Position numbers and translations under genes: made by a program
NCBI GenBank assembly: GCA_963678705.1
Contig: OY783209.1
Location: 9,424,001 to 9,488,000 of the forward strand
Direction of reading: 5' to 3'
From: Panorpa germanica
Taxonomy: Eukaryota; Arthropoda; Insecta; Mecoptera; Panorpidae
DNA: 64,000 bases
In this document: one piece after another, positions 7,804 through 42,800 of the stretch
Position numbering within the stretch: position 1 is the stretch's first letter
Layout of the letters: each line of letters begins with the position of its first letter
The notes under the pieces: generated by a model
Database searches by the model: none
The model's input: only the letters and a program-made list of their open reading frames with translations
Told to the model about the DNA's origin: nothing

Positions 7804-8132
7804 GGGCTTGTGTCCTATGTCTTAATTTCTATAAAAATGTACTATACGCTATATTGATAAAGTGGGTTACTAGAACCTCAAATGTTTAATTATTTTTTAA
7901 TAACGTTAGGAGATATTCACAATTAAAAAAGTCATTTTTTCCCTTTAATTATTAAAGGGATTCAACGTTGTACACATTCCAAGTGCATGTGACATCACAA
8001 TCCTTGTGTAAGGTTACCAACCTTACAGATCATAAATCTCTGCTATATGTATTTATATATCAAAATATCAAATATTATTTACAACTATTTCAAGAAACAA
8101 TCAAATTTCAATATTATGTCTGCCTTAGCAGG
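7804..8132 (+). mobile_element. Family A inverted-repeat element, copy 1, left part
   Basis: Left end GGGCTTGTGTCCT is the reverse complement of the right end at 16306-16318. The sequence follows the intact copies (for example 50300-50932) up to the target site GCAGG at 8128-8132, where the BEL/Pao element is inserted. The rest of the copy resumes at 16015. The apparent ORF at 7968-8150 is not conserved between copies and is not a gene. Transposon superfamily is undetermined because no target duplication is unambiguous. Confidence 0.85.
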
Positions 8133-8441
8133 TGTTCAGTACAAAATTAGTACAGAACATAAGAAGATGTCTCTGTTGGCATTCCAACATTATAATGTAT
8201 TGTTGTCTCTAATAGAAGTAATGCGCATGACTACAATACGACGACTGCTGTACGCTACAGCGATATGGCATTCGTGTCAGTTGTGTTTTGGGCTTCTACA
8301 CTGTCAAGATCATAATTCCCAACCATCTTGTTATTATAAGAATGTTGGTTCAAAGTTATTAAAAAGTGTAAAATTATTTTATCATTAAACAATTGAATAA
8401 TTATTCAATCTACAAATACTCGCATGGTTTTATTTCGTACA
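8133..8441 (+). repeat. 5' LTR of the BEL/Pao element
   Basis: 309 bp from TGTTCAGTAC to TTTCGTACA, indistinguishable by eye from the LTR at 15706-16014. A short imperfect inverted repeat (gttcagtac ... gtacagaac) lies just inside the 5' end. The frame at 8161-8388 inside it is repeated in the other LTR and is not a gene. Confidence 0.92.
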
Positions 8442-9321
8442 TGCGAAGCTGGTCCTTCGAGTCTTACAAAGCCGATCCTTCGAGTTTATTAACCGCGTGT
8501 GTTTTTCATTGTATTTTTGGCGTTTTATTACATTTGCCCCTTGGCGATTGCCATTGATTGGGTAAATGGGACGCTCTATTTTGGCGGATTCACGGAGGAT
8601 TTGGATATTTTACAATTACATTTCCAGAAGCCTTACAAGCGAAGCTGGATATTTTACAATTACATTTCAAGAAGGTTTTAAATCCTACAAAAAAAAAAAA
8701 CTGGCCTTACAAGCCATTGGTACCCGCGTGTGATTTCGTGGTGTTTTGAGGTTACATCTGTATAGTAACCAGCACAAGTGCAAGCTATTTTGTTACATTT
8801 ACCCTATGGCGGCCTGGCAAGTCATCAATTGCCATTGATTGGGTAATGCAACGTTTGATTTAAGCGGATTCGCATGGTTTTATTTCGTACATGCGAAGCT
8901 GGTCCTTCGAGTCTTACAAAGCCGATCCTTCGAGTTTATTAACCGCGTGTGTTTTTCATTGTATTTTTGGCGTTTTATTACATTTGCCTCTTGGCGATTG
9001 CCATTGATTGGGTAAATGGGACGCTCTATTTTGGCGGATTCACGGAGGATTTGGATATTTTACAATTACATTTCCAGAAGCCTTACAAGCGAAGCTGGAT
9101 ATTTTACAATTACATTTCAAGAAGGTTTTAAATCCTACAAAAAAAAAAAAACTGGCCTTACAAGCCATTGGTACCCGCGTGTGATTTCGTGGTGTTTTGA
9201 GGTTACATCTGTATAGTAACCAGCACAAGTGCAAGCTATTTTGTTACATTTACCCTATGGCGGCCTGGCAAGTCATCAATTGCCATTGATTGGGTAATGC
9301 AACGTTTGATTTAAGCGGATT
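8421..9321 (+). repeat. Tandem duplication of LTR end plus leader (2 x ~450 bp)
   Basis: Units 8421-8870 and 8871-9321 are nearly identical. I see one C/T difference and one extra A in a poly(A) run. Each begins with the last 21 bases of the LTR and continues through the presumed primer-binding site into the leader. The junction carries a short homology (tcgcat) present both in the LTR end and in the leader at 9321-9326, as expected for a replication or template-switch duplication. Each unit also holds an internal direct repeat of the ggatattttacaattacatt motif. Confidence 0.92.
8450..8463 (+). promoter_or_regulatory. Presumed tRNA primer-binding site of BEL/Pao element
   Basis: The sequence TGGTCCTTCGAGTC starts 8 bases after the 5' LTR. 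TGG is the complement of the CCA end of tRNA, so this is the likely primer site for minus-strand synthesis. The tRNA was not identified. A second identical copy lies in the duplicated unit, about 450 bases downstream. Confidence 0.55.
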
Positions 9322-9559
9322 CGCATATAATTTGGATTACTACACGTTTATATTTTAAGAAAAATTATTCATTACGGAAGAGGATACATGGATGCTGGAG
9401 GAGAGTAAAATACTTCTTTACTCATGAAGGTACAAAGTTATTATTACTATCTGCAAGTACCAATCTATTAAAAACTTCTCATGTTGCTGGATTAACCTGG
9501 ATTAGTTTGTCATCCACGTTTCATCTATCATATAAGTACGAATCTATCACCTAAGCAAG

Positions 9560-10969
9560 ATGGAGGGATTGAAAAGGCTTAGATCGGCGCGGACGGCTGC
9601 AAAAAGTGCAATATCACGGATGGACAATTACGTCAGCGACCCAAGGGCTCTCGACTCCGCTACAGTGGAGGTGCTGCAGGTGAAAAAAGAAAAGATGATG
9701 ACTACATTCCAATCGTACGAGCTCACGCAGTACAGCATTTTAGAAATTGATGATCAAGATGAGGAAGACATTGAAGAAGTTGAAGAGAAGTATTTTAACA
9801 TTATTGCAAAATTAAATGCTAGCATCAATAAGTTAAAAGAAGTCAATAGGCCTGAATTAGTTCCATTGAAGCTCCCAGCGGTGGAAATTCCAACCTTCGA
9901 TGGCAAGGATATAACCAGGTTTAAGCCCTTTTATGAGCTCTTCCAAGCAGTGGTTCACAATAATGCATCATTGTCCGATGTTCAAAGACTTTTTTATTTG
10001 AGAAAGTATCTCGTTGATGAGGCTCTCTCAATAATTATAAATCTGCCGCTTGTGAACAGCTCATACAAAGAGGCTATTGATTTATTGTTAGCGCGGTATG
10101 AAAATAAGGCAAGATTAATCTTTTATCACATTAATATAATACTTGATATTCCCAACATGCAGAAAGGTACTGCAGTCGATATAAGGGCTTTTTTATGTCA
10201 AGTAAAACAGCAATTACAAGCGTTAAAAAATCTTGATGAGCCTGTAGACAAGTGGGATATGATTTTAATCTCGGCCTTAAGTAGAAAATTAGATATCGTT
10301 ACTAACCGCACTTTCCACATGGAAAGAAATTTAGAAGAACTGCCTACTATGGCAGAATTTATTTCATTTTTAGAAAGACGTGCAATTGCAATTGAGTATA
10401 GTTTAGATTATAAAAATATGTCACATGACAATAATAATAATAAAGGAAATGTGGTTCCAAGAAAATTGTATAATAAAAATAAGTATTCACATAATAATAT
10501 TGTATGTAATCTTGCTATTTGTGAATATACAAACCTTGAGAATGTTATGAAACAATCTTGGACAACTGAGAAAGTCCCAGAGGAATCAGATAAGTTTTCT
10601 GAGGATTACTTAAAGGCTGAACATAAATTTCAAAATTCAGTAGCACTTAAAAATAATTTAACTGTTGATTTGCCATTACTCAGCCTAGTAAATAAAATAG
10701 AATTGGAGGATTCTTTCTCAGTTGCCCCGCAAAGATTTAATGTGTTGGAAAAAAGATTTAGACACAATCCTTCATTATTGGAGGTTTATAAAACATTATT
10801 AAACAGATCAACCAGTATTATGACATTAGGTTTAAAACACAATATTATTTTTATAAATATTAAAATAAAAACAAATTTAATTTGCTACAAGTCCAGGGTA
10901 GCTCCATCAAGTAAGGTACTTACAATACCCCAGCTTGAGATTATTAGCGCAGTGTTGCTGGTGCGAATC
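9560..10969 (+). CDS. BEL/Pao gag (DUF1759) with collapsed pol remnants
   Basis: The ATG at 9560 opens a frame of 470 codons up to the copia insertion. Residues 1-100 are charged and helical. Residues 105-290 fit the Pao gag domain DUF1759 (IPTFDGKDITRFKPFYELF). No CCHC knuckles or protease motif follow. Residues 332-415 resemble the connector upstream of the Pao RT (SWTTEKVPEESDKFSEDY, and RFRHNPSLLEVY). Residues 444-468 resemble the stretch near Pao RNase H (SRVAPSSKVLTIPQLEI). The RT core, RNase H and integrase are absent, so two large internal deletions are implied while the frame stays open. Beyond 10969 the frame reads ten codons of copia LTR and stops. The native continuation lies at 15275-15550. 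Confidence 0.8.
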
Positions 10970-11091
10970 TATTGTAATAGGTATCAAAATATCACTACTT
11001 AGTAACTAGTAACGCCATCTGTAATCTGTTGTGTAAAAACTTTTTCTTATGTCAAATATAGTCTGTTGCGAACTGCTAACGTGTCTTTATA
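10970..11091 (+). repeat. 5' LTR of copia element
   Basis: 122 bp starting TATTGTAATAGG and ending GTGTCTTTATA, with the same bases at 15148-15269. Termini are TAT...ATA instead of TG...CA. The boundary is fixed by the flanking GAATC duplication, the primer site and the purine tract. It is short for a copia LTR. Confidence 0.9.
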
Positions 11092-11101
11092 GGTTATGGG
11101 C
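11092..11101 (+). promoter_or_regulatory. Copia primer-binding site
   Basis: GGTTATGGGC immediately follows the LTR. It is complementary to the anticodon-stem region of initiator methionine tRNA, the primer known for Drosophila copia. Ten bases match before similarity stops. Confidence 0.75.
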
Positions 11102-11174
11102 AAATTTACCGGTTTATCAGTTTTTTTTATAGTATAAAATAGATAAATTGTTACGTTTTTTTTTTCGCGGAAAC

Positions 11175-14100
11175 ATGACTATGAACTATATTGCGAGTGT
11201 GCCAAAGCTAAAAGGCAGAGAGAATTACGATGAGTGGTGTTTCGCGGCCGAAAACTTGTTGGTACTAGAAGGGATGGAAAAGTACATCAAACCTAGTGCA
11301 GACTTCGAAGTTAAGCCAGTGGACGACTCCAAAACGAAGGCAAAGCTAATTTTGACCATCGATCCAGCATTGTACGTGCATATAAGGAATACCAGGAGCT
11401 CGGCAGAATTATGGACAAAATTGAAAGCCATGTTCGATGACTCCGGTTTCTCAAGAAAAATAACCTTACTTCGACATTTGATTTCGATAAGACTTGAAAA
11501 CTGTGATTCGATGACTACCTATGTCACACAAATGATCGAAACGGCTCAAAAGTTAAATGGCACTGGATTTACAATAACAGATGAATGGGTCGGATCATTA
11601 TTATTAGCAGGTTTGACTGATCGCTATTCTCCAATGATAATGGCAATAGAACATTCTGGCATTTCGATAAGTGCGGATACTATAAAGTCGAAGTTACTCG
11701 ACATGGAAGTAACCAGTGATTTTGAAGGTGCAGCTGGCGGTACGGCGGCATTTGCAGCGAGAAATAAATATAATTCTGGCAGCAGCGGTAAACCAAAGAA
11801 ATATGGCGGCAACCCAATGTCGAACAAAAAGACAGCGGCAGATACATCAGCAAAAACAATCACTTGTTTCAAATGTAAAGAGGATGGACATTATCGAAAT
11901 CAGTGCCCAATGTTGAAGAAAAACACAAATAAATGCGTGTTTAACGTTGTTTTCCTAAACGGAAAGTATAACAAAAACGAATGGTACATTGACTCCGGCG
12001 CAAGTGCACACATAACAGCAAATAAAGATTGGGTAAAGAACATGAACACAACTCCATGTATACCAGAAATTGTTGTAGCAAATGAATCAAAAGTGCCAGT
12101 TGTTTGTTCCGGAGAAGTTGACATTATTTCTAAACTTGGATGCAATATAATAGTGAAAGATGTGTTGTGTGTGCCTAGCCTGACAACCAACCTATTGTCG
12201 GTTAGTGAGCTCATTCAGAATGGCAATCATGTGATATTTACAAAGAAAAACTGTTATATTAGAGACAAGAACAATGTTTTGGTGGCGACAGCTGATTTAT
12301 CTGATGGTGTTTATAAGTTGAGATTACAATCACAAAGTTGTATGTTGGCTACTACAGCTAGTGCAAAGTTATGGCACAGAAGACTGGCACATATAAACAG
12401 CCAAGACATGCACAGAATGAGAAATGGTATTGTTGATGGTTTGTCTTATGATAACTCACTTGACATAACCAAATCACAATGTACTACTTGTTGTGAGGGA
12501 AAACAAATGAGATTACCATTTTCTCATGTGGGTGAGCGGAGTACAGAAACTTTACACAGAATCCACACAGATATTTGCGGCCCAATGGAAACAAGTTCTT
12601 TGAGTGGTGCTCGCTATTTCCTGTTATTTGTTGATGATTATAGTCGCATGACTTTTATTTATTTTCTGAAGCAAAAGAATGAAGCTTTGAACAGATTTAA
12701 AGAGTTCAAATCATTGGTTGAGAATCAACAGAGTAAGAAAATAAAGGTGATCAGGTCAGACAATGGACTAGAATTTTGTAACAAGGAATTTGAAGGCTAT
12801 TTGAAGCAAGCTGGAATTATACACCAGAAAACAAATTGTTATACACCTGAGCAAAATGGACTTTGTGAAAGGAGTAATCGTACAGTTGTTGAGAAAGCCA
12901 AATGTTTACTATATGATGCAAATTTAGATAAGAAATTTTGGGCGGAAGCAGCCAATACTGCTGTGTACTTGAAAAATAGATCGATTGCATCAGGATTGGA
13001 TAAAACACCTTATGAGTTATGGTATGGATCAAAACCAGACTTAAGTCACCTACGTTTGTTTGGAAGCAAAATTATGGTGCATGTACCCAAACAGAAACGT
13101 TTGAAATGGGACAAGAAAGCTACACAACATATTCTAGTTGGATATGGTGATGGTGTTAAAGGTTATCGTGTGTACAATCCTTCTAAGAACACTGTAATGA
13201 TCAGTAGAGATATAATAGTGATAGAAGATGTAACACCTATCAAGGAAGTCAGTGAAGAGTCAGCTATTTGGATATCCAATGAAGAAAATCCTACCGACAA
13301 TTTAGTGGAGGAAAGTAAAGATAAAGTGGGGGAGAGCAGAGATTCAGTGGGGGATCTGTCTAATAATGTTTCAGAAACAGATTTTTTAGATTGCTCTTCA
13401 GGTTCCTCATTACATACTGATGACAATGAAACACTGACTGAAATAAACACTGAAGATGTTCCAGAACAAGCAGTATCAATACCTGAGCAAGTGCCAGATG
13501 TGCCAAGTAAGCGTCAGAGAAAGAAGCCTGAGCGCTATGGTATTAGCAACATATGTGTTTCCAGTACTGTTCCAGCATCGGAGGAGATTGTATTCTCAGA
13601 GGCTCTTGAAGGGCCTGACCGGGAGCAGTGGAAGCAGGCAATGGCTGATGAATTACAGTCATTTGAGGACAGTGATGCGTGGCAGCTTGTGGACCATCCA
13701 GGTGATGTGACAATAGTGAAGTGTAGGTGGGTGCTAAATAAAAAGTATGATTTTGAAAACAATGTAAGGTATAGGGCTCGATTAGTGGCAAAAGGTTTCT
13801 CGCAGAAACCAGGTGTTGATTATACAGATACTTTTTCACCGGTAGTGCGGCATTCTACTCTAAGATTGTTGTTTGCACTTAGTGTTCAAATGAAAATGAG
13901 TATAACACATCTAGATGTAACCACTGCTTTCCTTAATGGTTTTTTGAAAGAAAATATTTATATGTCATTACCTGAAGGTTTTGTAAACAAAAGTGGGGGA
14001 AAGGTCTTAAAATTAAATAAAGCCATTTATGGGCTAAAACAGTCTTCCCTGGCATGGTATGAAAGAGTTAAAGAAGTTTTGAGTAGATTAGATTTCAAAA

Positions 14101-15113
14101 ATAGTCAATATGAACCATGTTTGTTTACAAAAATAACTGGTAAAATTAAAGTGATAGTGGCCCTGTATGTGGATGATTTTTTGATTTTTTCAAACAATGA
14201 TTTTGAAACAAATAAATTAAAAAGTGTATTAGGTTCAGAATTTAAGTTAAAAGACTTGGGACCTGTAAGACAATATTTAGGCATGAGAATAAATTTAGAT
14301 AAAAATAAAAATGTTATTACTGTAGATCAACAACAATATATTGAACAGTTAGTTTCTAAATTTCAAATGTCTGATTGTAAGACACAAAGTACTCCGATTG
14401 AGCCTAAATTGAATTTAGATAAGTCATCTGATAAATGTTTACCTGATGTTCCTTATCAAAAACTTATTGGAAGTCTGATGTATCTGGCAGTATTAACAAG
14501 ACCAGATATTGCTTACTGTGTTAGCTATCTCAGTCAATTTAATAGTTGTTATAGTCACATACATTGGAATTATTGTAAACGTGTATTAAGATATTTACTG
14601 CATACTAAAAGTTATTGTTTAAAATATACCAATAATAACAATAGTAATTTACAAGGTTTTGTAGACAGTGATTGGGCAAGTGATGCTCTAGATAGAAAAT
14701 CCTATACTGGATTTTGCTTTATGTTGTCAGGGTCTGCCATTTCCTGGCAAAGTAGGAAGCAGAAAACGGTTTCATTATCCAGTACTGAGGCGGAATACAC
14801 TGCTCTTTCTGAAGCTTCAAGAGAAGCTATTTATCTAAGAAATTTAATGCATGAAATTACTGATGTATTTAATGTAATTGATTTGTATTGTGATAACCAA
14901 AGTGCATTGAAGTTAGCCTCGAGTAGTCAGAGTCATAATAGATCCAAGCATATAGATGTGCGTTGTCATTTTATTAGAGATGTTGTAAAGAACAACTTTG
15001 TAAAAGTTAAGTACATTCCTACTGAAGAAATGCCTGCAGATATTTTAACAAAAGGTCTTTGTCATCTGAAACATTATAAGTTTATGAATTTACTTGGCAT
15101 TGTTTCTGTGTAA
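11175..15113 (+). CDS. Copia gag-pol polyprotein, intact
   Basis: The frame is open from 11148. The ATG at 11175 (residue 10 of that frame) fits the usual short copia N-terminus (MTMNYIASVPKLKGRENYDEW), giving about 1312 aa. Numbering from 11148, the gag UBN2-type domain spans 20-190 and the zinc knuckle CFKCKEDGHYRNQC lies at 240-253. The aspartic protease motif is DSGAS at 282, and the integrase zinc domain is near 410-450. The integrase triad is D475, D538, E574 with the canonical 35-residue last gap. RT spans 850-1090 with D923 and YVDD at 1007-1010. RNase H residues are D1173, E1214, D1249. The C-terminus is ADILTKGL. No stop, frameshift or missing catalytic residue was found. Functions are polyprotein cleavage, reverse transcription and integration of the element. 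Confidence 0.95.
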   Translation: MTMNYIASVPKLKGRENYDEWCFAAENLLVLEGMEKYIKPSADFEVKPVDDSKTKAKLILTIDPALYVHIRNTRSSAELWTKLKAMFDDSGFSRKITLLRHLISIRLENCDSMTTYVTQMIETAQKLNGTGFTITDEWVGSLLLAGLTDRYSPMIMAIEHSGISISADTIKSKLLDMEVTSDFEGAAGGTAAFAARNKYNSGSSGKPKKYGGNPMSNKKTAADTSAKTITCFKCKEDGHYRNQCPMLKKNTNKCVFNVVFLNGKYNKNEWYIDSGASAHITANKDWVKNMNTTPCIPEIVVANESKVPVVCSGEVDIISKLGCNIIVKDVLCVPSLTTNLLSVSELIQNGNHVIFTKKNCYIRDKNNVLVATADLSDGVYKLRLQSQSCMLATTASAKLWHRRLAHINSQDMHRMRNGIVDGLSYDNSLDITKSQCTTCCEGKQMRLPFSHVGERSTETLHRIHTDICGPMETSSLSGARYFLLFVDDYSRMTFIYFLKQKNEALNRFKEFKSLVENQQSKKIKVIRSDNGLEFCNKEFEGYLKQAGIIHQKTNCYTPEQNGLCERSNRTVVEKAKCLLYDANLDKKFWAEAANTAVYLKNRSIASGLDKTPYELWYGSKPDLSHLRLFGSKIMVHVPKQKRLKWDKKATQHILVGYGDGVKGYRVYNPSKNTVMISRDIIVIEDVTPIKEVSEESAIWISNEENPTDNLVEESKDKVGESRDSVGDLSNNVSETDFLDCSSGSSLHTDDNETLTEINTEDVPEQAVSIPEQVPDVPSKRQRKKPERYGISNICVSSTVPASEEIVFSEALEGPDREQWKQAMADELQSFEDSDAWQLVDHPGDVTIVKCRWVLNKKYDFENNVRYRARLVAKGFSQKPGVDYTDTFSPVVRHSTLRLLFALSVQMKMSITHLDVTTAFLNGFLKENIYMSLPEGFVNKSGGKVLKLNKAIYGLKQSSLAWYERVKEVLSRLDFKNSQYEPCLFTKITGKIKVIVALYVDDFLIFSNNDFETNKLKSVLGSEFKLKDLGPVRQYLGMRINLDKNKNVITVDQQQYIEQLVSKFQMSDCKTQSTPIEPKLNLDKSSDKCLPDVPYQKLIGSLMYLAVLTRPDIAYCVSYLSQFNSCYSHIHWNYCKRVLRYLLHTKSYCLKYTNNNNSNLQGFVDSDWASDALDRKSYTGFCFMLSGSAISWQSRKQKTVSLSSTEAEYTALSEASREAIYLRNLMHEITDVFNVIDLYCDNQSALKLASSSQSHNRSKHIDVRCHFIRDVVKNNFVKVKYIPTEEMPADILTKGLCHLKHYKFMNLLGIVSV

Positions 15114-15147
15114 TCATGTGTACTTAGATTATTTTGATAAGTGGGGG

Positions 15148-15269
15148 TATTGTAATAGGTATCAAAATATCACTACTTAGTAACTAGTAACGCCATCTGT
15201 AATCTGTTGTGTAAAAACTTTTTCTTATGTCAAATATAGTCTGTTGCGAACTGCTAACGTGTCTTTATA
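15148..15269 (+). repeat. 3' LTR of copia element
   Basis: Copy of 10970-11091 at a constant offset of 4178 bases with no difference seen. It is followed by GAATC and return to BEL/Pao sequence. Confidence 0.9.
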
Positions 15270-15274
15270 GAATC

Positions 15275-15550
15275 AAACAAGCAACAAATAAAATTTTTGA
15301 TTCAAATACAATACTTCCATCAGATATTAATTGCAATGTTTACAACATTGATGTAAAACAAACATCTGTACTGTTGGAATTGTTAAAAGATAATTGTTTC
15401 AATAACATTGTAACTATTGAGTTGATGATTGTTGTGTACATTATGCAAATGATAATGTATGCTACATTGATAATTATGGTTTCTGTTATATTTAGGATAG
15501 TAATTAATTTGTTTTATATTATTTTCACAAAATTATGTAGACTACCATAG
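15275..15550 (+). pseudogene. BEL/Pao ORF tail cut off by copia
   Basis: Continues the frame of 9560-10969 exactly in phase across the insertion for 91 codons and then stops. It would have completed a protein of about 561 aa before copia arrived. The C-terminal 45 residues are hydrophobic and low in complexity. I recognise no domain in it, and it may be non-homologous sequence read in frame after the integrase deletion. Confidence 0.6.
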
Positions 15551-15705
15551 AGTTAAGAAGTTTATGTTATTTTGTGTAATTTTGTTTATAATAGTTTTAA
15601 GAAGTTCACATTATTTTTTGTAAATTGGTTTATAATAATTTTATGTAACATTGTATAATTTGATATTGGTTGTGAGCTTATCTACTTCTGCTGGCTGGCA
15701 ATTTA

Positions 15706-16014
15706 TGTTCAGTACAAAATTAGTACAGAACATAAGAAGATGTCTCTGTTGGCATTCCAACATTATAATGTATTGTTGTCTCTAATAGAAGTAATGCGCA
15801 TGACTACAATACGACGACTGCTGTACGCTACAGCGATATGGCATTCGTGTCAGTTGTGTTTTGGGCTTCTACACTGTCAAGATCATAATTCCCAACCATC
15901 TTGTTATTATAAGAATGTTGGTTCAAAGTTATTAAAAAGTGTAAAATTATTTTATCATTAAACAATTGAATAATTATTCAATCTACAAATACTCGCATGG
16001 TTTTATTTCGTACA
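15706..16014 (+). repeat. 3' LTR of the BEL/Pao element
   Basis: 309 bp, same sequence as 8133-8441, followed by the GCAGG duplication and the remainder of family A copy 1. The bases before it (ctggctggcaattta) are not purine-rich, so the plus-strand primer site is not evident. Confidence 0.92.
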
Positions 16015-16318
16015 GCAGGGTTAAATAAAATAAAAACTTATTATTCTTTGACTTGACTTGATTATTTGACTACCAACAGCTACAAAACATTACCATAGCA
16101 CTGACCTACTCAACAAATAACTGACGTTAAAATGCATTTCACGTCATACAAATATGGCCGACCATTTCTAGCGCTAAAACTAAATTCAAACTTTTAATTG
16201 CTATATATTCGTCAATATTTAGCTATTTAATAAAATAGACACGCTAATACACATTTATTAACATCAATTTCAATCAACAATTGAAAAATCGACCACTAAA
16301 AAATGAGAACACAAGCCC
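16015..16318 (+). mobile_element. Family A element, copy 1, right part
   Basis: Resumes at GCAGG with gttaaataaaataaaaactt and ends with the right terminal repeat (aacacaagccc, one change from the consensus). Together with 7804-8132 it gives a copy of about 630 bp. Confidence 0.85.
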
Positions 16319-36881: not shown

Positions 36882-39800
36882 ATGGCGTCGGATAATGAAG
36901 CTTCTTGTGTTAATGACCCAAATTTTGCAATTATTTGTGCTTTCTTTCAAAAATTTGGTGCTTTGTGTGGTGTAGAATGTTCAGATATGTCAGAACTACA
37001 AACAATGATAGAAGACACCGAAGAAGGTTTGCCCCCATTGAATATTATGTATGGTATTTCTCATGCGACATAGTTTTAATAATGTTTGTTTTGTTTAGTG
37101 CATCCATATCTTAGAGAGCTTCACGTAAAATTACTGAGAAAACTACGTAAAACTGTAAATATGGATAAGTGGGAAGGTGCTGTCGTGAAATTTTGTCATT
37201 CTTATTCCAATCAAGATGCTTGGGAGATTGAAAGATTTGGTTACAAAAAATCTAATTTAACAGTGAAGCTTCGGATACTAAAGGTACGACATTTAACTTA
37301 TTTATTTAAAACATTGTGTAGAGTAACGTAAATCGTGCAATACAATATAACGAGAAATATATTTCCAGAATCTAGTAGAAAGACAATTTGATAGTAACAC
37401 TAAATTTCGAACTGAAGTAAGCCGTATGTCTGCAACAGAGCTACGTTCTCAGCCTGTGGGGCGCGATAGTCATGGCAATGCTTATTGGAGCTTGGTGGAT
37501 GATAGCTGTAATATACGAGTATATAAGGAAGACTTAGATGAAGAGACTTGGAAAATCGCCGCTTAGTAAGTGTCCATTATCAAAATAAAGACAGTTACAC
37601 TTACAGTAATTTTATTCTTCTAATTGTTGTTTTTTTGATTAGCGATCGAGATGGATTAGTTCAATTGATAGATCAGCTTAGTGGTGGAAGTTCTACTAGT
37701 ACTACTTCAGACCAATTAACAAATGAAGACAGTAATAGCATCAGTACGAGTATCTCTATTCAAAAGGCAAATGGAGATACACAAGAAGAGGAATTAAAGC
37801 TAGAGCAAACTACTGATACAACAAGTTTTGCGAAATCACATGAAATAAATCATATAAATGGATTCAATGGTAAGATCGAAGAATCAAACAAACTCTTGGA
37901 AGAAGATAAAGACAATGAGAACACAACGCCAAACAATGAAATGGATGCTTCCGAAAGTAAAAATGTTCCTAAAAATACAAAAATTGGTTTAATTAAAATA
38001 AGTTCTGTGTCCAAAATTAATGAGACAGTAGACTTATTTAAAATAACTAATACAACTCCAAATGGGAATACAAATGAGGCTGCTGATACTTTTCAAAATG
38101 ATATTAATTATGATAATAAATTCATTTCGGACAATGCCGTTAAGAAATCCGAAGTAAACAAGGATTCATCTTCTGATGGATTAGACTTAAGCATAAACAA
38201 AAACTCAAGCGAAAATATTTGTGACCGTAAAGTAGAAGAATCTAGTTTACTATCTGATCCGTTAAGAAATAAGAGACGCGCATCAGAGAATATCTGTGTG
38301 GAAAAATCTGATGAATTAAAAAATCAAATTGCTAAGAAATATAAATGTGACGACAGTAATGGTATTGAACAAAATGAAGAAGTAGATGAATCTCAAACAG
38401 AAGATGATTTAGTGGGAGAAGCTATTGAAGAACCTGTTATGTTTGTTAGTGGAACTGGTTCAGGACAAGAATGTGATGCTGGAAACCCAGAGAAAGAGAG
38501 TGGCGAGGCTACTAATGCTGGCACATCCACTAACGAATCTAAAGATTCGTTGAGCACGAATTCTCAGCTTCAAAGTTCCGATCAAAAAGAACTTATATGT
38601 TCACAAAATGATGACACTGCTACTAATAACTCTGGCACTATAACAGAAAGTTTGATTAGTCAAGAGGTAAAGTCACATACTGCTGAACAATCTGAAAACA
38701 TAGCTTGTGATCTTTCTATATCGAAGTCAATGCCTTCTAGTACAGAAAAAGTTGAAGAAACTTCAAATAGAGATGCAAGCAATGATAAATGTGAAGAAAA
38801 TATTAATGACAGAATATCACAATGTAATGTTTCCAATGCAGATTCACATGGTTTTATAGGAGATGAACAAAAAAAGACTGACTCTGAAGAACACATATCA
38901 CCAGTAGTTATAAATAATGCAAAAGAACTTGGCGATATTAATATAAAGGAAAAGGATGGTAGCATTGTAGAGGATAACAAGACTGACGAAATGGCGGTTG
39001 AGGAAATAAAAAGACAAAATACACCGAATTCAATCCCAAAAGAAATTGACTCATTAATTATTGAAACAGAAAATAATAAAATAAATGATACACTTGCAAA
39101 TGATGTTACACAACAGGAAACTAAAACAGAACAAATGTTTTTTTTTGGAAAACCTGGTTGCCTCCAATTGAATCCCATTTCACCGAAGAAGTCACTAGAC
39201 TCCGAATTAAAAAATAATATACCAATATTTAAAAAGATTGATACTATCGATAAGAATACCACAAGCAAAAATGTCTCAGAAGAAACTTCGTTAGATTTAA
39301 CAATGGAACGAATACCAAAAAATAATCTAAATATTATAACTGAAAAGAAATCTGAAACTGAAGAATTTTCGTGCGTTAAATTGGATAATCCAAAAGAAAA
39401 TGTAAATGTTTCTAGCACAAATAGTATCACGGAGAAAATACCTGACACAGAAACTACAGTGCCTTTGCAAAAATCAGATAGTGTTAATAATGAAGTCAAT
39501 AAGGATGAACTATCGAGCATGTTAAATAAAGAGAAAGAAGTGTTACCTGTTTTGGAGCATGAGACTGGAAGTGACACTAACGATGAAACGTTAGATGCAG
39601 AGTATGCCAATCTTCAAACACCGACCTCGAGTCCCATCATATCAGACACAGAAAGCGATCCTAAAAATGATACAGAAATTAATTTAACTAAAAGCAGTTT
39701 AATTGATGATTTAGCTGTTAATAAGCCTTCAGAATATGTTAAAACTTTAGATAATATACTATACGTGACAAAAGATATAACAAAAGATGAAAACCTATTA

Positions 39801-42800
39801 ACACCAACATTGGATAACAATCCAGTCTCAGAATATGCATCAAAAGATTCTGAGAAAGATGAACCAATAAATAAAAATATTGAAACAATGATAGAAATTA
39901 AATCTACATGCTTAAATAATAAAGACGATTGTATCTCAGAAAAAGTTAAAGAAGTAAATGCAGATAACAGTGACACAAGAAATTTATTATTAGAAAATGA
40001 TAATTGTAATACAATGGGAGAAACGTCTATCAAGAAATTAATTGATTCTGAACGAATATCTGAGGAAAATGATGAACAGGCAGGTAACAATTCGCAGGAA
40101 TGTTTGGATTTAAGTAAAATGAATAAATCTAAACAATCTGAAATAGATAATAACATCAAAGAATCCTGTAAGATTCAGGAGCAACAACTTTTAGTTGTTC
40201 ATGCGAAATCTTCTGAAGATAATCAAGAAAATGCATTTAGTAAAGAACAAAAATTAAGTATTCATGTCGACACTGAAAAACCATGCGAAGAAAATGAGAA
40301 TAAGAAAGGAGTGGATTTAACTGGAACTAAGAAACAAAAACGCGTAAGTTCTCCAAGAAATATGATGGAAGATTCATCATTGAGTCTTTCAAATGTTAGC
40401 GAGATATCTCCAGAAGATGTTGATGAGCAAGTCTGCAAAAAATCAAAATTGGATATAAGAAGTAACAACGACGAAAACAAATCTGTATTGAGTGTTGAAA
40501 ATGTTAGCAAGGTATCTGCAGAAGTTATTCATGAAGAAGTCTGTAAAAAATCGAAATTAAATTTAGAAAGTAACGAAGAAACTAAATCAGAAAAAGGTGA
40601 CAAGGACACTATGTCGCAAGCAAGCTCTGATATGAATGATGTGGCAATGGATGTAGAAGATGAGAGTGATATTTCAAATTTTGCGCAAGATGATTCTCAG
40701 TCGAGAGATATATCTTCTATTGAAGAGAATAGCATTAAATCGTTCGATATAAATGAAAAACTTGTGAAGCCAGAAAGTATTTTGGTTGAAAATATTAAAG
40801 GGAAGTCTGCGGGGAATTCGAATTCATTAAAAAACTCTGATGTATCCGTGTTAGATGATGTAGACCCTCTGGCGTGTGCAGATGTAGATTTAACAGCACA
40901 AAACAATGCTGATGAAAACATTGCTGAGCTATCAATACCAACAGTTAAACGAACCAAAAAAACTGCTACTAATGAAAATACAAACAAATCAAAACGAAAA
41001 ACTGAACTGGAAAAGTTGAATTTGGCAAAAACTGTATTATTTCCAAATACAAGGAAAAGGAGAATATCTGATAAGAATGAGTCTTCAATGGAAAGTGAAG
41101 TGTCTGATGAAGAATGCGGAGGGAAAAGAAGAAAACTTCGCCAAAAGAAAATTCCAGACAAAAATATAAAGTAATTATTTTATATTCGTAGTCATATTTA
41201 TAATAAAAATAAAATATAACGAAAAATATGTGTAATAACTGCTTAATTTTATAGACGTAAATCCAAGGATGATTCAGCACCAGTAGTCAGTAGTAGTGAA
41301 GAAGAGAAAAACAAGAAGAGCCCGAAGGTTCAAAGTAAAGCATCTACTCCTGAACCTGTAGAAATGGCCGTTGAAAATAATAGACGATCTACTAGAAGTA
41401 AGCAATAAATAAAATATCATTTGTGTACTCTTGTATTTACTATATTTATATTATAACTTACTTTAGGCAAGCTTGTCAAGGAACCCTCAAAAGTTGCGGT
41501 AAAGAAAAAAGCACCTACTGTTAAGTCTGCCCCTACAAATAAATTAGTAGCAAAATCTTCTACAGTTAAGGCTCCTTCAACTGCAAAAGCTACATCTACT
41601 GTTGTAAAGGAAACTCCTATTGTTAAATCCGTTGCAGAACCGAACACAGTAAATAGTAATCGCCCGTGCCCTCGTAGATTTAAGAAAAGTAAATTATAAA
41701 TTAAGTTATATTAGTAGTAAATTATAGTATATTTGTAAGTTATTATTATTTTAATATTTATTTAAAATATGCTTATTTTATTTACAGAAATTTTAGGTTT
41801 AGAAGTGGAAACAGATGTTATAGAGAAAATTACGGATGAACCGGAAAGTAATGTACGACAATCTAGAAGAATAGCACAATTAAAAATTAGAGAAGAAGCA
41901 GAAAGACGAAAAGTTGAAGAAATCACCTTGCAACAGTTAAAAGAACAGTCTCAGGTAAAAAAGAAAATTAAAGGAAAAGATGATGGTCAATCATCAGAAA
42001 AAAGAAAACGTAAACAACCAATTTCTGTATCTGCTTCTGCTGAGAGTAGCGAAGCAGAAAGTGGAGATAGTGGTAAACCAACAAGATTACAATTGCTGAA
42101 GAAAAAGAAAAGAGATACAGCAAGAACATACAACGAAGCCAAACCGTGGCAAAGTTCATCGGATAATAATAGTAGCTCCAATGAGGAGGAAGAGGAAGAG
42201 CCAGATTATCATGAACCATCAGAAGAAGGTATTATCATTACAATGATATTTTTATACGTAGTGGTTATTTAAATAGTAAAGTGTTTTAATTATGTAAAAT
42301 GTTATTTGCAGAAGCTGCTCCGGTTTTGAAATCAGATCATGAATTCTCACCAGAGAGTGATTTAGAGGGTGATGATGGTTTGCCTTTACGTAGAGCAAGA
42401 ACCGTAAAATGTGGTAAATATGATAACAATCAACGCTACTGAAGAAGTATCTGTAGGTTACTTCTAGACATTTTTTGCTATTTTAAACTCTTATCCTCTC
42501 TTTCATAGATGATGCAGCCATTGATGAAACAGATTCTTATAGATGCCAACGATGTGGAAAATCTGATCATCCAGAATGGATTCTCCTGTGTGATTCCTGT
42601 GACTGTGGTTATCATTGTTCCTGTCTTAAACCAGTGTTATTTGTTATTCCAGAGGGCGACTGGTTTTGTCCACCTTGTCAACATGTATGCCATTTAATAA
42701 TTATTAAAATAGTGTGGTCTTAAACAGTTTATTTTTAATTGATTACATTTTTATATCATTTTTAGAACAAATTAATTACTGGTCTACAATTTCAATTAGT

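Follow-up and report, generated by a model that had tools for sequence, protein, structure and literature searches.

LARD and TRIM are non-autonomous long terminal repeat (LTR) elements that are moved in trans and as a rule have no coding sequence. To go by a title alone, CM-gag of Culex pipiens is reportedly a reiterated insect element with a gag gene only. In plants, non-autonomous LTR elements that carry gag have been described as TR-GAG, and one of them, with a 562-residue GAG frame, transposed in an Arabidopsis ddm1 mutant (consulted part of PMC8704663). Here we analyze a 64,000-nucleotide stretch of the genome of the scorpionfly Panorpa germanica (contig OY783209.1, positions 9,424,001 to 9,488,000; hereafter the window). 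It holds an LTR-bounded element at 8133-16014 that is very probably a copy of a helper-dependent, non-autonomous BEL/Pao family.

Once a nested Ty1/Copia insertion is subtracted, the element measures about 3.1 kb and carries a frame, unlike the very short TRIM without coding sequence. It differs likewise from LARD in the 561-codon frame found in copies that lack the Copia insertion, all 91 scored places being stop-free. As in TR-GAG, these copies combine LTRs, a single gag frame and the lack of pol enzymes with a potentially autonomous relative in the same genome, as far as the consulted part of PMC8704663 describes that class. The active Arabidopsis element is of Copia type and has a full-length GAG; the Panorpa family belongs to BEL/Pao, its Gag is not full-length, as the zinc knuckles are absent, and pol leftovers are fused to it in frame.

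Shortened BEL/Pao copies are also known from rooA of Drosophila, whose copies, at about 25% of the full length, have been suggested to spread by means of intact helpers, apparently in D. erecta (consulted part of PMC3087523). Unlike rooA as described there, the present family has an open capsid frame under selection and hundreds of places that share one junction. The Ty1 products p22 and p18 resemble the protein considered here in being truncated Gag products that meet full Gag in particles, which the Panorpa protein would do; they differ in that they are made by autonomous Ty1 itself, comprise the other half of Gag and are inhibitory (consulted part of PMC4599808).

The original prediction, made from the window sequence, had proposed a distinct gag-carrying derivative family moved by an autonomous partner. 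Both the family and a full-length relative were found, and movement in trans seems probable. Since TR-GAG had already been described in plants, the idea of a gag-carrying element is less new than that prediction stated. The kind is thus known (TR-GAG-like), and a BEL/Pao element with capsid but no nucleocapsid is new. A literature search brought up no report of a BEL/Pao element that retains gag or capsid alone, which is weak evidence of absence.

Architecture of the window copy

The class assignment follows from an LTR pair with a 5-bp target duplication, a DUF1759 gag domain and a partial Peptidase_A17 match (E 2.1e-7) in the same frame as DUF1759 (Table 1). No protease, reverse transcriptase (RT) or integrase of its own was found in the element by Pfam search and by mapping onto the full-length relative L051 described below, and it is therefore a BEL/Pao derivative and not an autonomous member. 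As originally predicted, the two LTRs agree, here at all 309 bases, and the element lies between two copies of GCAGG. DUF1759 and pol leftovers do lie in one frame, with at least four leftovers where two had been reported.

In other respects the prediction has to be amended. Only the capsid part of gag is kept, without the knuckles seen in the sister family, and the interior is not wholly a BEL/Pao remnant, as a nested Copia element of 4.3 kb had been overlooked. The 450-bp tandem duplication in the leader had also been missed. The number of leader repeats varies among copies: the full duplication is seen in the window, and partial extra repeats of about 190-210 bp occur in L060, L061 and L064. 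In copies without Copia, the frame continues beyond the pol leftovers into a stretch resembling the 3' untranslated region and ends in a hydrophobic C-terminus. The capsid part matched no solved structure by sequence up to E 1.

Copies across the genome

The genome searched comprises 464 Mb in 249 contigs. Used as a DNA query, the frame matched with 100% identity at 40 of 40 scored places (836 candidates). From this query 20 loci were cut, one of them the window copy; the 19 others all have the same internal structure, and none carries Copia. A 561-codon frame beginning with ATG is present in 18 of these 19, the exception (L007) being a case in which the script met another copy's start first. 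The 91 places scored with the frame as a protein query came from 2468 first-look candidates, and in 87 of them the stop-to-stop frame is 569 codons long (rows counted by hand).

A 35-place pattern across one deletion junction was found at 411 places with at most 3 mismatches, and its reversed control at 0, so that other copies with the predicted junction do exist. At the same tolerance, the first 31 bases of the LTR occur at 1049 places (control 0), which include full-length copies and solo LTRs. Five of the junction places fall within 9 kb at G000:C4:16438431-16447271, perhaps a tandem or nested cluster.

LTR pairs were compared in 18 close copies (L002-L020 without L007), 16 of which gave a full-length alignment of both LTRs. 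All 16 pairs show 0 mismatches, and 15 of the 16 copies have matching 5-bp target duplications; the sample is biased to young copies, because they were picked for likeness to the window copy. Four more distant lineages (L053, L057, L062 and L063) diverge by 4-7% in the frame and by 7-14% in the LTR, and their own LTR pairs show 2, 1, 1 and 0 mismatches, respectively, over 308-312 positions. Several lineages of the non-autonomous family therefore seem to have been mobilized recently. Of 16 further copies (L069-L084, from 40 listed places), a frame of 556 codons or more was found in 12; the other 4 are broken or yielded no start.

A full-length sister family

A full-length BEL/Pao element of 6513 bp, L051, was found from an LTR pair spaced 6204 bp, picked by eye from the first 100 LTR-end places listed. 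Its LTRs have 0 mismatches between each other and are 85% identical to the window LTR. Across the relatives this identity is about 80-87%, with a nearly identical block around the LTR end and primer site; the full-length relative that the original prediction called for thus exists, with a related and not an identical LTR. Searched in pieces, L051 matches DUF1759, DUF1758 (a putative peptidase), Peptidase_A17, Integrase_H2C2 and DUF5641 above cut-off, and RVT_1 and rve below their cut-offs; no RNase H family was called in this piecewise search.

The RT piece of L051 recurs at 99-100% identity at 40 of 40 scored places (232 candidates) and the integrase piece at 98-100%, again at 40 of 40 (217 candidates). 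As a protein query, the RT piece is stop-free at all 114 scored places (1369 candidates), 87 of which lie within a frame of 1752 or 1740 codons (counted by hand). From these long open frames and near-identical copies we conclude that the genome contains a sister family that is apparently intact and autonomous. The 5' and 3' ends of two further copies of it were read (L065-L068).

The window frame maps onto successive blocks of L051 and then onto the stretch resembling the 3' untranslated region (Table 1). All four pol leftovers are read in the pol frame (three phases computed by program, the rest by hand arithmetic). Judged from the alignment of the two sequences, the five gaps relative to L051 would most simply represent five deletions in the non-autonomous line, with junctions placed approximately and not to the base. 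The sister-family Gag (L065, L067) ends with C-x2-C-x3-H-x4-C motifs, recognized by eye; those of L065 were not called by Pfam at E 0.01. Compared by eye with the same two copies, the non-autonomous protein lacks these knuckles.

The LTR end and primer region (alignment columns 301-400) differ from L051, L065 and L067 at 1/63, 0/100 and 4/63 positions, respectively. Fourfold gag sites, taken for comparison, differ at 16/76, 18/74 and 15/75, and the middle of the LTR differs by 20-32% from the sister family. Such a conserved block is expected if shared machinery primes both families, and exchange by recombination would fit it as well.

L065 (G000:C8:2239000-2241150) is a sister-family copy with the leader unit that is largely lacking in L051 and L067. 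Around the LTR end and primer region, it and the non-autonomous copy L002 differ at 0/100 positions, a pattern resembling an exchange of leaders between the two families.

Many other BEL/Pao elements with long frames are present, with 150 scored A17 places among 1681 candidates and recurrent frames of 1699 and 1719 codons. Thirty of these 150 places (L021-L050) are only about 50% identical to the window frame over some 32-37 residues, which had given the impression that no partner exists; L051 overturned it.

A mosaic copy

Forty-four diagnostic gag sites distinguish three copies of the sister family from 20 other non-autonomous copies. L077, a non-autonomous copy, has the sister-family base at 11 of the 44, all consecutive (alignment positions 171-276), and the tract is flanked by 10 and 23 non-autonomous diagnostic sites. 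The chance of such clustering under random placement is about 4e-9. The same scan found one sister-family site in each of five other copies and two in L080, which we take as chance changes; the mosaic frequency is 1 of 21 copies. L077 could be explained either by template switching in a shared particle or by DNA gene conversion.

Selection on the capsid part

Between lineages, the pairwise ratio of nonsynonymous to synonymous rates (omega) is 0.13-0.47 in the capsid part and 0.40-1.04 in the pol leftovers, the latter range omitting two pairs without synonymous change there. In a 21-copy set, changes found in 2 or more copies give, at a transition bias of 2.2, an omega of 0.41 for the capsid part (26 synonymous and 31 nonsynonymous changes, p 8e-4) and 0.75 for the leftovers (29 and 64, p 0.12). 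Without the mosaic L077, the corresponding values for 20 copies are 0.43 (25 and 31, p 1.6e-3) and 0.74 (p 0.11). Capsid singletons give 0.39 (p 4.3e-4) with L077 and 0.64 (p 0.11) without it. Over all counts, the capsid omega is 0.33-0.51.

The 21-copy set leaves out broken or start-less copies, L063, L071, L074, L076 and L083, and the near-identical young copies except L002, L060 and L061. The neutral ratios of 2.9 (13 copies) and 2.95 (20 copies) were typed by hand, near the values for a transition bias of 2.2. Gaps in the codon alignment were not counted as evidence, because they are multiples of three by construction. As omega is significantly below 1 for shared changes, the capsid protein is under some purifying selection. 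More copies would be required to claim a stronger constraint on the capsid part than on the leftovers.

Proposed mobilization and alternative explanations

In the explanation that we favor, the family most likely has a single origin, in a full-length BEL/Pao element that underwent several internal deletions. These would have spared the LTRs, the primer-binding region, the leader and the capsid part of gag, and would have removed the nucleocapsid zinc knuckles, protease, RT core, integrase and, by position, RNase H. The RNA is most likely packaged in particles built by the autonomous sister family, whose enzymes would most likely also reverse transcribe and integrate it. The truncated capsid protein may join these particles, and the window copy would have received its Ty1/Copia insertion later.

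Several observations weigh against this scenario. The family is known from genome sequence alone, from which we infer co-packaging and mobilization in trans, and the mosaic L077 could be the product of DNA gene conversion. The gag and pol frames of L051 are offset, and L051 has no matching target duplication. The relatives found are not the direct parent, because their LTRs differ by about 13-20%, and the helper could be another of the many BEL/Pao families. Not every net gap length relative to L051 (808, 668, 354, 282 and 1415 nt) is divisible by three, since these lengths include the frame offset of L051 as well as later indels, and the sequence beyond the last gap, in the 3' untranslated region, is read in another frame. 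Outside the primer block, the leader differs by 4-21% per 100-column block and hence is not specially conserved throughout.

The selection data add to these points. At a transition bias of 1, the leftovers too fall below neutral (omega 0.60, p 0.017, 21 copies), as do their singletons (0.58, p 0.025, for 21 copies; 0.55, p 0.018, for 20). The contrast between capsid and leftovers is not significant for shared changes, and its Fisher p rose as copies were added, from 0.051 (13 copies) through 0.083 (21) to 0.117 (20 without L077); for all changes in 14 copies it is 0.18.

The weakest step is the use of the capsid protein itself in mobilization, towards which the balance tips slightly. A further-reaching idea, which we advance tentatively, is that of a satellite retrotransposon: an element that has lost nucleocapsid and all enzymes, keeps its own capsid under selection, forms mixed particles with a helper, and has lasted for long enough to give rise to several lineages. 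If so, the mixed particles would either favor the packaging of its own RNA or take over the helper's machinery.

The two closest alternatives concern the capsid only. The frame may simply be carried along, either for the stability that an open frame lends to the RNA or on account of the family's youth; the protein would then be idle, and the element would amount to a LARD that contains a fossil gag. Whichever holds, the family and its helper are unaffected. In favor of an idle protein, an intact frame is no surprise in most of the scored copies, given their youth; the pol leftovers, surely without enzymatic function, have likewise remained open; and both the contrast with the leftovers and the capsid singletons without L077 fail to reach significance. 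Against an idle protein speak the capsid omega values, significantly below 1 for changes in at least 2 copies, the pairwise values, lower than those of the leftovers where defined, and the placement of all leftovers in the pol frame. On balance we consider such a passive frame unlikely, if still a serious contender.

Alternatively, the truncated protein could be a trans-dominant interferer with the helper, without benefit in cis. Ty1 p22, a part of Gag, inhibits particle assembly, and a fraction of it seems to co-assemble (consulted part of PMC4599808); the loss of the knuckles with retention of the capsid domain would suit such a role. Both families are, however, abundant and their copies very alike, which makes interference improbable. 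A one-off decayed copy or an assembly error has next to nothing in its favor: among the 20 loci the window copy alone has Copia and the full 450-bp leader duplication, yet its junction is common to 411 places and all 19 other loci share its structure without Copia, so we reject both possibilities.

The nested Ty1/Copia element and other features of the window

A complete Ty1/Copia element of 4.3 kb occupies 10970-15269, within the BEL/Pao interior, so that more than half of 8133-16014 is another transposon and the BEL/Pao frame of the window copy is cut after about codon 469. Its open frame of 1326 codons encodes a Copia-type gag, a zinc knuckle, integrase and then RT (RVT_2), the Ty1/Copia order in a single frame. 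The 122-bp LTRs begin with TAT and finish with ATA, instead of TG...CA.

The Copia interior recurs with 100% identity at 40 of 40 scored places (198 first-look candidates), 39 of them outside the window; the pattern across the BEL-Copia junction is unique in the genome (1 place; at most 3 mismatches; control 0), and Copia is therefore an independent later insertion. That the two move as a composite unit, as the identity of both LTR pairs, and hence the recency of both insertions, might suggest, is practically excluded and was rejected on this unique junction and the identical Copia copies elsewhere.

Elsewhere in the window, an open frame at 30749-31423 matches a class-V aminotransferase (PF00266, E 4.8e-17) and by eye resembles molybdenum cofactor sulfurase, which it may represent. 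A 1210-codon frame at 37542-41174, acidic and serine-rich by eye, has no Pfam match at E 0.001.

Table 1. Features of the BEL/Pao element and of the nested Ty1/Copia element, in window coordinates
Feature	Position	Strand	Remarks
Target-site duplication GCAGG, left	8128-8132	none	
5' LTR, 309 bp, TG...CA	8133-8441	+	309/309 bases identical to 3' LTR
Leader unit A	8442-8891	+	starts with presumed primer-binding region; first ~20 bases same as L051
Leader unit B	8892-9341	+	tandem duplicate of unit A in window copy
Remainder of leader	9342-9559	+	
Capsid (CA) part of gag, codons 1 to ~293	9560-10440	+	86% identical to L051 gag (L051:924-1813)
DUF1759 match	9896-10315	+	E 1e-27; residues 113-252 of frame from 9560
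Pol leftover 1	10472-10800	+	L051:2680-3012, between protease and RT core
Pol leftover 2	10799-10851	+	L051:3679-3731
Pol leftover 3	10866-10961	+	L051:4100-4195; part of Peptidase_A17 region
Copia target duplication GAATC	left 10965-10969, right 15270-15274	none	
Copia 5' LTR, 122 bp	10970-11091	+	same as 15148-15269
Copia gag-pol open frame	11133-15113	+	stop to stop
Copia 3' LTR	15148-15269	+	same as 10970-11091
Pol leftover 4	15295-15388	+	L051:4506-4608
Match to relative's 3' untranslated region	15426-15687	+	L051:6064-6346
44-bp tandem repeat in 3' region	15553-15643	+	
3' LTR	15706-16014	+	same as 8133-8441
Target-site duplication GCAGG, right	16015-16019	none	

Implications

The family bears on the question of why certain LTR elements that cannot move by themselves retain gag when all else is lost. 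With 411 junction places, several lineages and a sister family in the same genome, P. germanica offers a large natural system in which selection on a capsid gene without nucleocapsid, and its effect on the helper, can be tested. The family would extend gag-carrying non-autonomous elements from plants to BEL/Pao.

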